Source of the DNA: Exiguobacterium antarcticum DSM 14480
GTDB lineage: Bacteria > Bacillota > Bacilli > Exiguobacteriales > Exiguobacteriaceae
Length of the DNA stretch: 64,000 nucleotides
Reading direction: 5' to 3'
NCBI RefSeq assembly: GCF_000685865.1
Contig: NZ_JMKS01000003.1
Location: 186,001 to 250,000 of the forward strand
A program made the position numbers and the translations under genes. Below are positions 37,757-48,450 of this stretch, one piece after another. The notes under the pieces were generated by a model. It was not told where the DNA came from. It was given only the letters and a program-made list of their open reading frames with translations, and ran no database searches. Numbering within the stretch: the stretch's first letter is position 1; each line of letters starts with the position of its first letter.

Positions 37757-38362
37757 TTAATCGGCAAGACTTCTGATCATGAGGATCTCACCTTTTTGAA
37801 CACGGATGTCCGCCACTCTTTGTCTGGTCCATTCGTTACTGACAGTCAATGAACCACCGACTGGAACGGTCTGCTCCATCAATGGATATTTGACGCCACA
37901 GAGCGTCAAGACTGTCGAAACAAGTGGAATGAAGGACAAGTAATGATACTGTTCCGCTTCGATTTCATAACGTCCTTCGGGCAAAAAACGTACATCTGCC
38001 TGTTTCGTCACAAGGCGCGCTTCGGGGAATTGTTTTAACAAATACACATTTTGAAGTGTCATATCAATCCTCCCGCCCGTCGCGCCAAAGATTAACAATT
38101 CCGTGACTTCATAGTGTTCATAGACATACCGTAACGCCAATTCCAAATCCGTCTCATCTTTTTCAGCAGGATGCAAAATAGCTCCCGTCGGTATATGACC
38201 AAGTGAATCAAAATCACCGATCGCCAGGTCAAAGTCGATGCCTTGATCCACCAAGGTCGCAATGCCCCCGTCGACGCCGATGACACGTGTGTTTTCGAAT
38301 AAAAACGGTTTTAGTAGCGGCACCTCTTCCGACGGACCGGCTGCGACGATGATGATCCGCAT
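37757..38362 (-). CDS. thiN: Thiamine pyrophosphokinase
   Basis: ThiN turns thiamine into TPP with ATP. The 201-residue protein has the conserved GVDGGIATLVDQG and AIGDFDSLG motifs of the catalytic domain and TDLELALRY, and a C-terminal beta domain. Its ATG overlaps the thiT stop (TGATG), so it is the second gene of the TPP-riboswitch operon, pairing uptake with activation of the vitamin. Confidence 0.93.
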   Translation of the reverse strand: MRIIIVAAGPSEEVPLLKPFLFENTRVIGVDGGIATLVDQGIDFDLAIGDFDSLGHIPTGAILHPAEKDETDLELALRYVYEHYEVTELLIFGATGGRIDMTLQNVYLLKQFPEARLVTKQADVRFLPEGRYEIEAEQYHYLSFIPLVSTVLTLCGVKYPLMEQTVPVGGSLTVSNEWTRQRVADIRVQKGEILMIRSLAD

Positions 38363-38922
38363 CAGACACCTCGTGCCGAATAACGAAGAAGTCGTGGCGC
38401 CGTCGTAAACAAGAGACCAGCAACAATTCCACATAGTAGATAAGACGGAACCATGTAGGTCGCATTATAAATCAGTGAATACGGCACGACCGGACCTTCT
38501 GCGTATTCGGCAAAGAACACGATGCCGCTGATGACGTGACAGACATACCGTAAGCCTGCACCAAGCAACGTCGCAATGAGAACAATCGTCATCAAACGTC
38601 CATTTTTCCCATCCGCTGCTGCTTTTTTGACTTGTCGGGCAAACAGTCCGCTCAACCCGACGACACCAAAGGCGATCGTATAATCGAGTAACGGTTGAAC
38701 GACCGTCAGGATTTGTGGGGCAAACATCAATTGAATGGTCCCGACAAGAGCTCCCGTCACGACACCACCAACGACACCATGACGAAATGCCATCACGAAA
38801 ATCGGCAACATTGCCAAACTGATAGAACCACCTTGAGGCATTTTAAACGGGATCAATAAATCAAAGACAACCCCTAGACTTGCAAAGATTGCAATTTCCA
38901 TTAACATTTGTAGCCGTTTCAT
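38362..38922 (-). CDS. thiT: Thiamine ECF transporter substrate-binding component ThiT
   Basis: ThiT is the membrane S component that captures thiamine for an ECF energy-coupling module encoded elsewhere. The 186-residue protein has about six membrane segments and the thiamine-site region near LRYVCHVISGIVFFAEYA, typical of YuaJ/ThiT. ATG 38922 has AGGAGG 7 nt upstream. The TPP riboswitch just before it confirms the vitamin specificity. Confidence 0.94.
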   Translation of the reverse strand: MKRLQMLMEIAIFASLGVVFDLLIPFKMPQGGSISLAMLPIFVMAFRHGVVGGVVTGALVGTIQLMFAPQILTVVQPLLDYTIAFGVVGLSGLFARQVKKAAADGKNGRLMTIVLIATLLGAGLRYVCHVISGIVFFAEYAEGPVVPYSLIYNATYMVPSYLLCGIVAGLLFTTAPRLLRYSARGV

Positions 38923-38957
38923 TCTTTTTCCTCCTAAAAATAAAATCGCAGGACGGC

Positions 38958-38988
38958 AAAAAGGCAGTACGACGGACGCCGTACTGCC
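38958..38988 (-). terminator. Intrinsic terminator of the TPP riboswitch
   Basis: GGCAGTACG and CGTACTGCC (38963-38971 and 38980-38988) form a perfect 9-bp stem, followed on the minus strand by TTTTTGCC. It sits between the aptamer and thiT, so TPP binding should favour termination. Confidence 0.9.
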
Positions 38989-38996
38989 TGCGTGCG

Positions 38997-39086
38997 CCAC
39001 ATCCCTACGTCCGTCTGAACGGAACAGGTTCGAAGGGTTAAAGTCCGATCACTTCTCTCAGCCGCTTGACGCGACACCCCTTGCGG
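38997..39086 (-). ncRNA. TPP riboswitch (THI element)
   Basis: Read on the minus strand the region has the aptamer signature in order: AAGGGGTG, CTGAGA, ACCCTTCGAACCTG and CGTAGGGA, with a P1 stem CCGCA/TGTGG closing it. It lies 28 nt after the rpe stop and controls thiT-thiN through the following terminator. Confidence 0.96.
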
Positions 39087-43414: not shown

Positions 43415-44743
43415 TCAAATCGTTTTTTTGAAGGCAGCGATATAAAAACCATCCGTTCCGAGCGTCGTCGGCAAGAGTTTCAATTCTGCCCGTTCACCAA
43501 TCAAAGATTGGACCGATTCCGGCATCCGCGTTTTGAAACCTTCATCAAATTCAAACCCTTGACTGAGGATATACTCCGTCTGCTGTTCGTTTTCGAGCGG
43601 ATCCATCGTACAGGTCGAGTAGACAAACGTTCCACCGGTCTTGACGAGTGGGAGGACGGCTTCAATGATCTGACGTTGAATGACCGGTAACTGTGTCAGA
43701 TCCTCCGGACGTTTTGTCCATTTGATATCAGGTTTCCGGCGAATCACACCAAGTCCTGAACACGGTGCATCAACGAGAATACGATCAAACGATGCTGGGT
43801 CGAAACGGCTTCCCGCTTGTCGTGCATCGAGTACGTCTGTCTGAACCGTCTCTAGACCCAATCGCTTCGCTTGTTTTTCAAGTAATTTCACTTTATGGGG
43901 ATGAAGGTCAAGTGCGAACAAAGAACCTGTCGTCAATCCTTCCGCAATATGCATGGCCTTCCCGCCTGGCGCGGCACAACTGTCCAATACCCGATCAGAC
44001 GCTTGCGCACCAACAGCAGATGCGACCAGCATCGAGCTTTCATCTTGAAGTGACAGATAGCCCCGCTCCAGTAAGTCTGTTTGTTGGACACTGCCACTGA
44101 TGATTTCCAGTCCATCTGGCGCCGCATGCGCTAGTTTCGCGATGACACCCTGTTCTTCTAATAATTGAATCATTTCTTGTCTGTCTGCCCGTCTTTGATT
44201 GACACGAACCGTTACAGGTGCCGGTTCATTGTTCAGACGGCACATCTGCCATGTCTCGTCTTCTCCAAACAATTCAATCCACCGTTCAACGAGCCATGCC
44301 GGATGACTGGTCTCGATACTGATTCGCTGTACGGTAGAGGATATCGTCGAAAAATTAGGTTTCCCTTTTCGCAAGACATTCCGTAAAACACCGTTGACGA
44401 CTTTGGCGATATGTGGCTTGCCACGAGTCTTGGCAATCTCTACTGCTTCATTGATGACAGCGTGATCAGGAATCCGGTCAAGATAAAACAGTTGATAAAC
44501 GCTCATCCGAAGCAACGGACGCATGAACGGGTCTAATTTTTTTTGAGACGCTAAAAATGGTTCTAAAATATAGTCGAGTGTCAATTCACGGCTGAGCGTG
44601 CCATAGACGAGTTCCGTGTATAAACCGACATCGGCTTTGGCAATGGCTCGTTTCTCGAGCATCTGGTGGACGGAAATCGTGGAAAAAGCCCCACCTTGTC
44701 CGATTTTCAATAATGTTGTGACTGCTGCATCTCTGACGTTCAT
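43415..44743 (-). CDS. rsmB: 16S rRNA (cytosine-967-C5)-methyltransferase RsmB
   Basis: RsmB methylates C967 of 16S rRNA. The 442-residue protein has an N-terminal NusB-like helical domain (about 1-140) and a SAM-dependent Fmu/RsmB domain with SCAAPGGKAMHIAEGL, DAPCSGLGVIRR and STCTMDPLENE, the two cysteines being the catalytic pair. Its start overlaps the def-fmt stop by 4 nt (ATGA), so the three activities are co-expressed. Confidence 0.95.
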   Translation of the reverse strand: MNVRDAAVTTLLKIGQGGAFSTISVHQMLEKRAIAKADVGLYTELVYGTLSRELTLDYILEPFLASQKKLDPFMRPLLRMSVYQLFYLDRIPDHAVINEAVEIAKTRGKPHIAKVVNGVLRNVLRKGKPNFSTISSTVQRISIETSHPAWLVERWIELFGEDETWQMCRLNNEPAPVTVRVNQRRADRQEMIQLLEEQGVIAKLAHAAPDGLEIISGSVQQTDLLERGYLSLQDESSMLVASAVGAQASDRVLDSCAAPGGKAMHIAEGLTTGSLFALDLHPHKVKLLEKQAKRLGLETVQTDVLDARQAGSRFDPASFDRILVDAPCSGLGVIRRKPDIKWTKRPEDLTQLPVIQRQIIEAVLPLVKTGGTFVYSTCTMDPLENEQQTEYILSQGFEFDEGFKTRMPESVQSLIGERAELKLLPTTLGTDGFYIAAFKKTI

Positions 44744-46116
44744 GCTTGTTCGCCTACTTTCTGTCCGATCATGAGTGTCTGTCCGACACCTCGCATGAAT
44801 GTCGTGCCATCCATCCGTTTTTTGCCCGCTGGTTGTAAATCCGTCAATTTCAGAGCCATTCCTGATCCTGTCGCGATGACCGGACCGTCTGCTTCAAGCG
44901 CAATGATTTCTCCTGGCGTACCGGTTCCTGGGACTTTTTCTGCAAAATAGACTTTCAACCGGTCCGTACCAAGTGTCGTATAGGCACTCGGGAAAGGATT
45001 CATGCCGCGAATCTGATTGTAAAGGTCTTCCCCTGGACGTGAGAAATCGAGTCGTTCTCGTTCCCGGCTGATGTTCGGAGAAAACGTCACATCTTCTTCT
45101 CGCTGTGCTTCCGGTGTCAACGTCCCCGCAATCAACTGCGGTAACGTCTCAATCAACAGTCGGGCACCAGCGGCACTAAGTTTATCAAACATCGTTCCAA
45201 CCGTATCCCGTTCTTCGATCGGGACAATGATTTTTGACAACATATCGCCGGCATCGAGACGGTCGACCATATACATGATCGTGACGCCTGTCTCGGTTTC
45301 CCCGTCGATGATGGCCTGGTGGATCGGAGCACCACCTCGATACTTCGGAAGCAACGAGGCATGGACATTGATCGCGCCAAATCGTGGTGCTTCAAGAACC
45401 GCAGTCGGAACGATTTGTCCATAAGCTGCCGTAATGATCAGATCTGGTTTCAAGTCGAGTAAAGCCTGATAGTCTTCACGAATTTTAATCGGCTGCAAAA
45501 CTGGAATGTCATGAGCCAGCGCCACTTCCTTGACCGGTGTCGGTTTAATTTCACGTTTACGCCCGACCGGTTTATCCGGTTGAGAGACAACCCCCACTAC
45601 ATCGTATCCGGCATCGATGACTTCTCGTAACGTATTCGCAGCAAATTCCGGTGTGCCCATAAAGACGACGCGTGGTTTTTCGACGAGCTTATCGGTAAAC
45701 AGGATTCCGTCTAAATGATCCATCTCATGTTGAATCGCACGTGCAAAAAAGCCATTTGCCTTAATTTTTATGCTTCGCCCGAGACGGTCTTGGGATTTGA
45801 CGACGATTTGCTCGAACCGTTCGACCGGACCGAAAATCCCCGGCATACTAAGACAGCCTTCATCATCGATTTCTGAACCACTTGCTTCGATGATTTCCGG
45901 ATTGATCAACTCAACCGGTCCGGTTTCATCATCCGTATGGACGACTGCAACACGAATCGGCTGATTGATTTGCGGTGCCGCAAGTCCTACACCGTCATAT
46001 TCATACATCGTGTCAAACATCCGATCAATCATCTTAGCTAACTTTTTATCGAATTTCGTGACGCGTTGACATTGTTGACGCAATACGTCATTTGGTACTT
46101 CTACAACTTTATACAT
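44740..46116 (-). CDS. Fusion of peptide deformylase (Def) and methionyl-tRNA formyltransferase (Fmt)
   Basis: One 458-residue frame carries both enzymes. Residues 1-144 are a type-1 deformylase with GVGLAAPQI (42-50), EGCLS (86-90) and QHEMDH (129-134), the Fe/Zn site complete. Residues 148-458 are Fmt, opening KPRVVFMGTPEF and holding INVHASLLP (249-257), RLDAGDM and the C-terminal OB-like domain (TDLQPAGKKRM). Only about three linker residues separate them; no stop or separate SD lies there. In B. subtilis the same place holds two genes, def and fmt. The protein would add and later remove the same formyl group. It lies 9 nt after priA. Confidence 0.93.
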   Translation of the reverse strand: MYKVVEVPNDVLRQQCQRVTKFDKKLAKMIDRMFDTMYEYDGVGLAAPQINQPIRVAVVHTDDETGPVELINPEIIEASGSEIDDEGCLSMPGIFGPVERFEQIVVKSQDRLGRSIKIKANGFFARAIQHEMDHLDGILFTDKLVEKPRVVFMGTPEFAANTLREVIDAGYDVVGVVSQPDKPVGRKREIKPTPVKEVALAHDIPVLQPIKIREDYQALLDLKPDLIITAAYGQIVPTAVLEAPRFGAINVHASLLPKYRGGAPIHQAIIDGETETGVTIMYMVDRLDAGDMLSKIIVPIEERDTVGTMFDKLSAAGARLLIETLPQLIAGTLTPEAQREEDVTFSPNISRERERLDFSRPGEDLYNQIRGMNPFPSAYTTLGTDRLKVYFAEKVPGTGTPGEIIALEADGPVIATGSGMALKLTDLQPAGKKRMDGTTFMRGVGQTLMIGQKVGEQA

Positions 46117-46125
46117 ACTGCCACC

Positions 46126-48450
46126 TCACATGAATACAAATGGATTTAAATCCACTGTTACTTGGACTTTTTGTTTGATGCGTAATGCAAGCATCGCGCG
46201 GAGTGCCTCCCGCACGTCTTCTTGACCTTTATGTTTTAAAATGACTTGTTGCCGATACATGTTTTTTAATCGTGCAAGCGGTGCTTCAAGTGGACCATTG
46301 ACAATCAGATCGTCGGACTCCAAGTGCCGGAGTTCCAAAGCAATTGCTTCTGCTTCCGCCTGCGCTTCGAGCGGATGTGCCGCTGAAATCGTAATCAATC
46401 CTAAAAACCAGAACGGCGGATGACCCCCGAGTTTCCGAAGTTGCATCTCACGTTTGTAAAACGCTTCATAATCATGCTGTTTAGCGGTTTGAATGACGTA
46501 ATGTTCTGGATTGTACGTCTGGATGATGGATTGTCCAGCGAGCGCCCCCCGTCCTGCCCGTCCTGACACTTGGGTGATCAGTTGAAACGTCCGCTCACTG
46601 GCCCGAAAATCAGGGATTCCAAGTGTTGCATCCGCCGCGATCACACCAACTAACGTCACATTCGGGAAATCCAGACCTTTGGCAATCATTTGTGTTCCGA
46701 GCAGGATATTTCCTTCACCGCGTTCAAAGGCATTGAGCAATTTTTCATGCGCCCCTTTTCGCGACGTCGTATCCTGATCCATCCGGATGATTTTTGCTTC
46801 CGGAATCAAATGCGCTAATTCTTCTTCGATTTTTTGTGTGCCGGTACCAAACTGACGAATTTTCTTCGACTCGCACGCCGGACAGGTTTTTGGCATTTGA
46901 GCCTCAAAACCACAATAATGGCACTTCAGACAATCTTGATGTTGATGGTAGGTCAAATTGACAGCACAATGCGGACATTGAAGTGTTTCTCCGCAATCCC
47001 GGCACAAGACAAACGTCGTATAACCCCGACGATTCAGTAACAAAACGGTCTGTTCGCCCCGTTCAATCCGTCGTTTGATTCCTTCGATAAGCGGAAGACT
47101 GAACGGTGTTCGATTCCCACGCTCGAGTTCTTTGCGCATATCGATGATATCAACAGGGGGAAGTTCTCCCCCAAACCGTTCCTTGAGGGGTAAATACCGG
47201 TAGACACCCTTTTGAGCACGGGCATACGTTTCAAGAATCGGTGTCGCACTTCCGAGAACAACGGGACAACGGTGATAGGCCGCACGCCAGGTGGCGACGT
47301 CCCGTGTATGATATCGCGGATTTTCTTCCTGTTTGTATGTCGTTTCATGTTCCTCATCTAAAATGATGACACCGATGTTCGTCAACGGTGCAAAAATCGC
47401 GGATCGTGCCCCGACGACGACGTCGACTTCACCTTGGGCAATCTTACGCCATTCATCATACTTCTCACCTAACGACAGACCACTGTGGAGAACAGCGACC
47501 CGTTCCCCGAACCGGCGTTTGAATCGTTTGACCATCATCGGTGTCAGACTGATTTCCGGGACAAGCAACATCGCTTGTCGTCCACGTTCAAGCATCGTGT
47601 GAATCGACTCCAGATACACTTCCGTTTTTCCACTTCCCGTCACACCATGCAATAAGAAGGTACTTGTCTCATCCGGTCGAGTGATCGCGTCGACGGCCTG
47701 TTGTTGGTGGTCCGTCAACATCGACGGGACAAAAATATCCTGAACCAGATGTTCATAGGGATTGCGGTTGACATCAATCGTCTCCACCCCGATGACCCCT
47801 TTTTTTTCTAGACTGTTGATGATGCTGACCGTCAAATCGAGTTCATGCATCACTTCACTCCAGAGGACTTCCTGCCGTTCCATCAGATAATCACGAAGCA
47901 CAATCTGCTTCGTTGCTTGTTTTGACAATTCGATCGTTCCATCGAGCAGCCGGATGCGTTTGTCCGTTTTGGTCGTCTTTTTTTCTTTGACGATAGGTTG
48001 TAATTGAAGTTCACCTTGTTGTGCAGCCAGTAAGATTTGTTGTTGGACTTCGCTTGGAAACTGACTGATTTTTTTATGATTCCAGGCGGACAATCGTGGA
48101 TTCTCCGTCAAAATCAGTTTATCATAACTGACTTTCAAGGCAGCCGGTAACATCGCAAGTAATGCAGTCGCCTGATAACAAAGCGTCGTCTCCGCTAAAT
48201 AAGATGACAACTGCAGTAACTCTTCCGTATAGGTGGGCGTTTCATCGAGCACACGGACAATCGGTTTCGTCCGGGCGAGTTCCGTCTCCGCTTTGACCGC
48301 CACGACGATTCCAAGCAATGCGCGTGGACCAAATGGAACTTCGACTCGCATACCCGGTACAACAAGATTTTGCCATAATGCTGGCACTTCATAGTCGAAT
48401 GGTCGATCGACCGTCGCTGCTGCCACATCGACGATGACTTCAGCAATCAT
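46126..48450 (-). CDS. priA: Primosomal replication restart helicase PriA
   Basis: PriA reloads the replicative helicase at stalled forks. The 774-residue protein has an N-terminal DNA-binding part (about 1-110), Walker A HGVTGSGKTEVYLESI, the DEEH box, a zinc-binding insert with four CxxC pairs (CRDCGE, CPHC, CHYC, CPAC) and the C-terminal helicase lobe (GTQMIAKGLDFPNV, QVSGRAGRG). Its ATG overlaps the coaBC stop (ATGA). Confidence 0.96.
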   Translation of the reverse strand: MIAEVIVDVAAATVDRPFDYEVPALWQNLVVPGMRVEVPFGPRALLGIVVAVKAETELARTKPIVRVLDETPTYTEELLQLSSYLAETTLCYQATALLAMLPAALKVSYDKLILTENPRLSAWNHKKISQFPSEVQQQILLAAQQGELQLQPIVKEKKTTKTDKRIRLLDGTIELSKQATKQIVLRDYLMERQEVLWSEVMHELDLTVSIINSLEKKGVIGVETIDVNRNPYEHLVQDIFVPSMLTDHQQQAVDAITRPDETSTFLLHGVTGSGKTEVYLESIHTMLERGRQAMLLVPEISLTPMMVKRFKRRFGERVAVLHSGLSLGEKYDEWRKIAQGEVDVVVGARSAIFAPLTNIGVIILDEEHETTYKQEENPRYHTRDVATWRAAYHRCPVVLGSATPILETYARAQKGVYRYLPLKERFGGELPPVDIIDMRKELERGNRTPFSLPLIEGIKRRIERGEQTVLLLNRRGYTTFVLCRDCGETLQCPHCAVNLTYHQHQDCLKCHYCGFEAQMPKTCPACESKKIRQFGTGTQKIEEELAHLIPEAKIIRMDQDTTSRKGAHEKLLNAFERGEGNILLGTQMIAKGLDFPNVTLVGVIAADATLGIPDFRASERTFQLITQVSGRAGRGALAGQSIIQTYNPEHYVIQTAKQHDYEAFYKREMQLRKLGGHPPFWFLGLITISAAHPLEAQAEAEAIALELRHLESDDLIVNGPLEAPLARLKNMYRQQVILKHKGQEDVREALRAMLALRIKQKVQVTVDLNPFVFM

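Follow-up and report, generated by a model that had tools for sequence, protein, structure and literature searches.

One gene of Exiguobacterium antarcticum DSM 14480 carries both peptide deformylase (Def) and Met-tRNA formyltransferase (Fmt), and we consider it highly probable that its product is one bifunctional enzyme, which most simply goes back to a single fusion in the common ancestor of the Exiguobacterium family and has kept both active sites. The gene was studied in a window of 64,000 nucleotides (NZ_JMKS01000003.1, positions 186,001 to 250,000), to which the coordinates given below refer. Addition and removal of the formyl group are opposite steps, the former taking place on the tRNA before initiation and the latter at the ribosome exit. 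A version of both enzymes in one protein, especially where it is the only copy in a genome, lets one ask whether the two steps need to be balanced or co-located. Fusion of def and fmt in this genus is already known, and the gene described here belongs to the published Exiguobacterium fusion (PMC12690207; Mol Biol Evol 2025).

The fused gene and its conservation

The def-fmt fusion gene (44740..46116, minus strand) is a single frame of 458 amino acids running from ATG to TGA. The first-pass annotation had described a stop-free frame from Def into Fmt; its coordinates were exact and both families score above their cut-offs. The peptide deformylase domain (45676..46116, minus strand; residues 1-147) is recognized by Pfam (Pep_deformylase, PF01327, residues 1-147, 169.9 bits against a cut-off of 22.8) and by the NCBIfam equivalog TIGR00079 (163.8 bits against 103.95), which identifies a type-1 peptide deformylase. 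It contains the motifs GVGLAAPQ, EGCLS and QHEMDHL, and the stretches GVGLAAPQI, EGCLS and QHEMDH that had been read as intact were confirmed in the translated frame. The N and C domains of Met-tRNA formyltransferase (44743..45672, minus strand) occupy residues 149-458 and are matched by Formyl_trans_N (PF00551, residues 149-325, 138.8 bits) and Formyl_trans_C (PF02911, residues 348-443, 78.9 bits), both above cut-off, while the Met-tRNA formyltransferase equivalog TIGR00460 scores 323.1 bits against a cut-off of 201.5. The junction (45664..45681, minus strand) comprises residues 146-151 (EKPRVV) within FTDKLVEKPRVVFMGTP, and the linker is about three residues long, as first estimated. The nearest solved structures are the deformylase 1ws0 for the first part and the Fmt 4iqf for the second. 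An AlphaFold model of the whole protein is confident inside the domains (mean pLDDT 93.1), but, with a pTM of 0.71, its placing of the two domains relative to each other is tentative.

The gene is flanked on the same strand by rsmB (43415..44743, minus strand), the start of which overlaps the stop of the fusion as ATGA, and by the upstream neighbour priA (46126..48450, minus strand), which ends 9 bases before the fusion gene. A ribosome-binding site region, TGAGGTGG (46120..46128, minus strand), overlaps the priA stop. Both the coupling to rsmB and the closeness to priA proposed earlier agree with this ATGA overlap and 9-base spacing. Elsewhere in the window a TPP riboswitch (RF00059; 38985-39091, minus strand; 66.9 bits against a cut-off of 54.3) lies at the beginning of a gene for a thiamine transporter (Thia_YuaJ; longest frame 38362-39000), which is followed by a gene for thiamine pyrophosphokinase (37757-38434). 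The riboswitch and the thiamine genes are set in a rpe-rsgA-prkC-prpC-rsmB-def/fmt-priA run, in which the names rpe, rsgA, prkC and prpC are our own assignments.

In 38/38 genomes of the family, which come from two genera, the fused frame runs without interruption through at least query residues 1-455; the order contains the same 38 genomes. A separate collection of named records was searched with a junction pattern that required HEMDH and a gap of 45-75 bases. Among the 38 stretches with this pattern, 14 are Exiguobacterium records with both motifs in one frame, and both domains are visible in 13 of these 14, the remaining one (L076) being truncated where the stretch ends. The other 24 stretches are unfused, with a stop or frame change between the pair, or are chance matches. 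Among the named records examined, the closest is that of Exiguobacterium sp. KRL4 (L062), with a protein 98% identical and an identical junction. A sequencing or assembly error that erased a stop separating two normal genes is thus practically refuted by the unbroken frame in all family genomes together with the named records, and the search of related genomes that had been proposed with the annotation is thereby answered. The pattern misses fusions with HEIDH or HELDH, and phyla beyond Bacillota were covered by this narrow pattern alone. A restriction of the fusion to Exiguobacterium, as the HEMDH pattern would suggest, is wrong, since fusions with HEIDH and HELDH exist in Bacillota.

Conservation extends to the functional motifs, which were scored in 34 rows, namely the window itself and loci that represent 33 of the 38 family genomes, one of these being the window's own genome. 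The Def motifs G.G..A.Q, EGC.S and QHE.DHL, defined as in PMC12690207, are all present in 34/34 rows. The same holds for the Fmt motifs NVHASLLP and RLDAGD (the latter scored with the expression V[DE][KR]LDAGD) and for the QPDKPVGRKRE loop. We take these three Fmt stretches to have catalytic and tRNA-loop roles. In non-saturated pairs, dN/dS is 0.010-0.126 in Def and 0.010-0.119 in the Fmt N-domain; these values are rough, as for many pairs between genera no value was obtained and the others are near synonymous saturation. Judged from such comparisons, both halves of the fusion are under strong purifying selection. The linker, in turn, drifts in length while the reading frame is kept, the junction being 0-7 residues longer in the relatives read than in the window.

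One polypeptide with two activities

In the proposed mechanism, the C-terminal part of the fusion would formylate Met-tRNA(fMet) as the sole Fmt found in the genome, and the N-terminal type-1 Def would deformylate nascent chains beside a separate deformylase of the Gram-positive type. If the fusion were translated whole and then cut, or if an internal Fmt start were used, separate Def and Fmt proteins would result. We regard this as very improbable. The variation of the linker in length and sequence is what one expects of a cleaved linker, as well as of an unconstrained one, and a GTG is present near the junction, at -9/-10 or 0, in some relatives. None of these codons is conserved, however, and an internal Fmt start was rejected because the relatives share no candidate at the junction. 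In the window no in-frame ATG, GTG or TTG occurs between the ATG of HEMDH and that of VVFMGTP (residue 153), and this latter ATG falls within the Fmt strand that comes first in the AlphaFold model (residues 149-154). Inspection of the sequence ahead of it revealed no SD-like stretch; an internal start with its own SD near 45675, which the first-pass annotation had considered as evidence against a single protein, was thus not found. Also, the linker of the window has just three or so residues, which speaks against separate proteins. Folding of the junction RNA, where a structure for frameshifting or re-initiation was sought, is no better than that of shuffled sequence (z +0.81). The fusion gene therefore probably yields a single uncut protein of about 50 kDa.

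The genome encodes a second deformylase (C3:315846-316343), about 84 kb from the fusion. It is of the Gram-positive type and closest to the PDF structures 2okl, 1lqy and 1lqw; a second deformylase hit is present in 38/38 family genomes. No other Fmt was found in the genome, the only other match to the formyltransferase domain being a 195-residue frame at C5, which we take to be PurN. The earlier suggestion to look for another def or fmt is thus answered by a second Def and no second Fmt. Two of the 38 family genomes (G013 and G009) have an extra Fmt-like gene, a frame of 286-290 residues with 30-31% identity, perhaps encoding a sugar or other formyltransferase.

The ubiquity of the second deformylase in the family lends some weight to the idea that the Def half has become an idle remnant, with deformylation in Exiguobacterium left entirely to the separate enzyme. 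YkrB, the second deformylase of B. subtilis, is reportedly the main one there. Nevertheless, we consider an idle Def half unlikely. Def and Fmt evolve at similar low rates, the three Def motifs are kept throughout the 34 rows, and a complementation experiment points in the same direction: according to PMC12690207, a codon-optimised fusion from E. alkaliphilum rescues an E. coli def-fmt deletion, and the rescue is read there as requiring both activities. One polypeptide with both activities is hence supported as the right reading, with the experiment having been made on the Exiguobacterium homologue from E. alkaliphilum. The view that a single protein both formylates and deformylates, already put forward from the window alone, is borne out by this rescue. 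The fixed 1:1 ratio postulated along with it probably holds for the fusion, but does not set the total deformylase of the cell because a second deformylase gene exists. Losing fmt is described in PMC12690207 as a common escape from deformylase inhibitors; in fused genomes this escape sits in the same gene as the drug target.

Origins of the fusion in Bacillota

Within the class Bacilli (299 genomes of 117 genera), 28 genomes of the Exiguobacterium family have the unbroken fusion, and none of the other Bacilli among the matches listed is unbroken across both domains. By the simplest account, the Exiguobacterium fusion would have arisen from an adjacent def-fmt pair in a single event in the family ancestor. 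The short end of Def, the Def stop and the Fmt start would have been lost, with both active sites intact since then. The benefit in Exiguobacterium may be no more than fixed co-production of Def and Fmt.

A search of the phylum (249 genomes, of which 211 matched) revealed, among the matches listed, at least six unbroken Def-Fmt frames besides G000, namely in G316, G358, G394, G470, G422 and G516; long-linker fusions can appear as Fmt alone in this search. All six belong to one other class of Bacillota, that of Thermaerobacter. With the fused G358 protein as query, 74 of 81 sampled genomes of this class gave a match. Profile HMMs based on the retrieved loci, applied to 73 of these 81 genomes, placed Def and Fmt in one unbroken frame in 45 genomes, in two separate genes in 24, and in 3 genomes Fmt was found without Def on the stretch examined. 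Many of these genomes are high-G+C drafts in which long chance frames are common, and the claim of fusion rests on both domains sharing one frame, not on frame length. In one further genome, G559 (L160), Def and Fmt also share a frame, but a stop codon interrupts the Def part, through either an error or a broken gene.

Three fused proteins of the Thermaerobacter class were examined with Pfam, and all three domains are over cut-off in each. Among the 45 fused rows, the Def motifs are found in 45/45 (motif I), 42/45 (EGC.S) and 44/45 (HE.DH) and the two Fmt motifs in 44/45 and 45/45. The exceptions are EACLS in G548, G555 and G564, HEMEH in G616 and NVHPSALP in G612. In G616 (L112) the HEMEH variant of the fused Def occurs together with a second deformylase, possibly indicating decay or tuning of the fused copy. 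Four loci of a Thermaerobacter-like genus (L084-L087; g125) differ from the window protein by an insert in the Fmt C-domain region that is rich in Gly, Pro and Glu and several tens of residues long.

A profile search revealed no second deformylase match in 37/45 fused genomes; such a match is present in G536, G551, G555, G557, G572, G586 (partial), G588 and G616. Many fused genomes are in many contigs, and the absence of a second deformylase is firm for the complete ones only. Of the 37 fused genomes listed as at least 90% complete, 31 are without a second deformylase match, among them G358 and G316, each a single contig. Fmt gives a single match above the TIGR00460 cut-off, and this in a frame of fused length, in 45/45 fused genomes, and a further Fmt match below this cut-off is found in G548, G569 and G587. 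The complete formyl cycle may hence run on one enzyme in the Thermaerobacter class.

The relation between both groups of fusions was addressed with a tree of concatenated Def and Fmt domains (57 fused rows among 101), a quick reconstruction with SH-aLRT support only, in which several forks are weak. All 12 rows of the Exiguobacterium type fall into one clade (support 100), away from the Thermaerobacter class. This clade adjoins the unfused Bacilli loci L038 and L039 (support 99) and lies inside unfused Bacilli. At least 10 changes over four groups are needed on the 101-row tree. A topology test was made with 33 of the 101 rows, picked after seeing the larger tree. On this set, a single clade for all fused rows is rejected (log-likelihood 131.9 lower, p-AU 9.8e-5), and a clade that unites the fusions of the Thermaerobacter class alone is not (p-AU 0.225). 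Two fusions of independent origin, one per class, are the simplest reading of these trees. One very old fusion followed by many later splits may also account for the distribution, since change counts cannot separate gain from loss. Keeping to the simplest reading, we lean slightly towards the view that fusion of Def with Fmt happened two or more times in Bacillota and that it provides, at 1:1, the sole Def and Fmt that profile searches detect in the 37 genomes of the Thermaerobacter class counted above. If this is true, every nascent chain in such cells would be deformylated by a protein that also binds initiator Met-tRNA, and repeated fusion may mean a real gain, such as keeping both steps close to the ribosome, and not a chance neutral event in a single genus.

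Comparison with known systems

The unfused operons closest to the window are those of the Bacilli L038 and L039, in which the gene order is as in the window. They match nearly the whole query with 58% and 56% identity and one stop codon inside. In these unfused Bacilli Def ends with SKVIRYCDLEELEG followed by a stop and Fmt begins anew, unlike in the window. The general statement that def and fmt are adjacent in most bacteria needs qualification, as PMC12690207 gives co-localisation of the two in 58% of species.

Deformylase has been described to bind the ribosome via its C-terminal helix (PMC8712518). In the fused enzymes Fmt stands in that place. The ribosome-binding helix is presumably that of the E. 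coli enzyme. The first-pass annotation had proposed that Fmt replaces a missing Def tail, an idea that turned out to be weak. The tail past HExDH is just 13-26 residues long in 20 unfused loci outside the Thermaerobacter class, and the distance from HExDH to the Fmt GTP motif is 19-26 residues in the 12 fused Exiguobacterium-type rows; replacement of the tail is thus unsupported. In 24 unfused loci of the Thermaerobacter class the tail has 19-96 residues. Since unfused deformylases are often without a long tail, no ribosome-binding tail need have been lost through the fusion.

The fusion of the Thermaerobacter class has the same domain order as that of Exiguobacterium, and the same Pfam domains in the three proteins checked. 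The distance from HExDH to the Fmt motif differs, being 25-87 residues in 44/45 rows of that class. A further difference is that most fused genomes of the Thermaerobacter class (37/45) show no deformylase match besides the fusion, whereas the whole Exiguobacterium family has a second one. Among open-licence PMC papers we found none naming both Thermaerobacter and deformylase, nor, partly judging by title or the start of the abstract, any report of a Def-Fmt fusion besides PMC12690207. Within that literature, the wider spread of the fusion is not found in print.

The closest known system is therefore the published Exiguobacterium fusion itself. PMC12690207 reports a screen of 5,042 reference genomes, in which the four from Exiguobacterium have def fused to fmt, and a second PDF in Exiguobacterium with all critical residues. 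Lineage, domain order, second deformylase and single Fmt are the same as in the window. The experiment there was made with E. alkaliphilum, while the window gene comes from another species or strain; by analogy, the window copy would be expected to behave as its E. alkaliphilum homologue.
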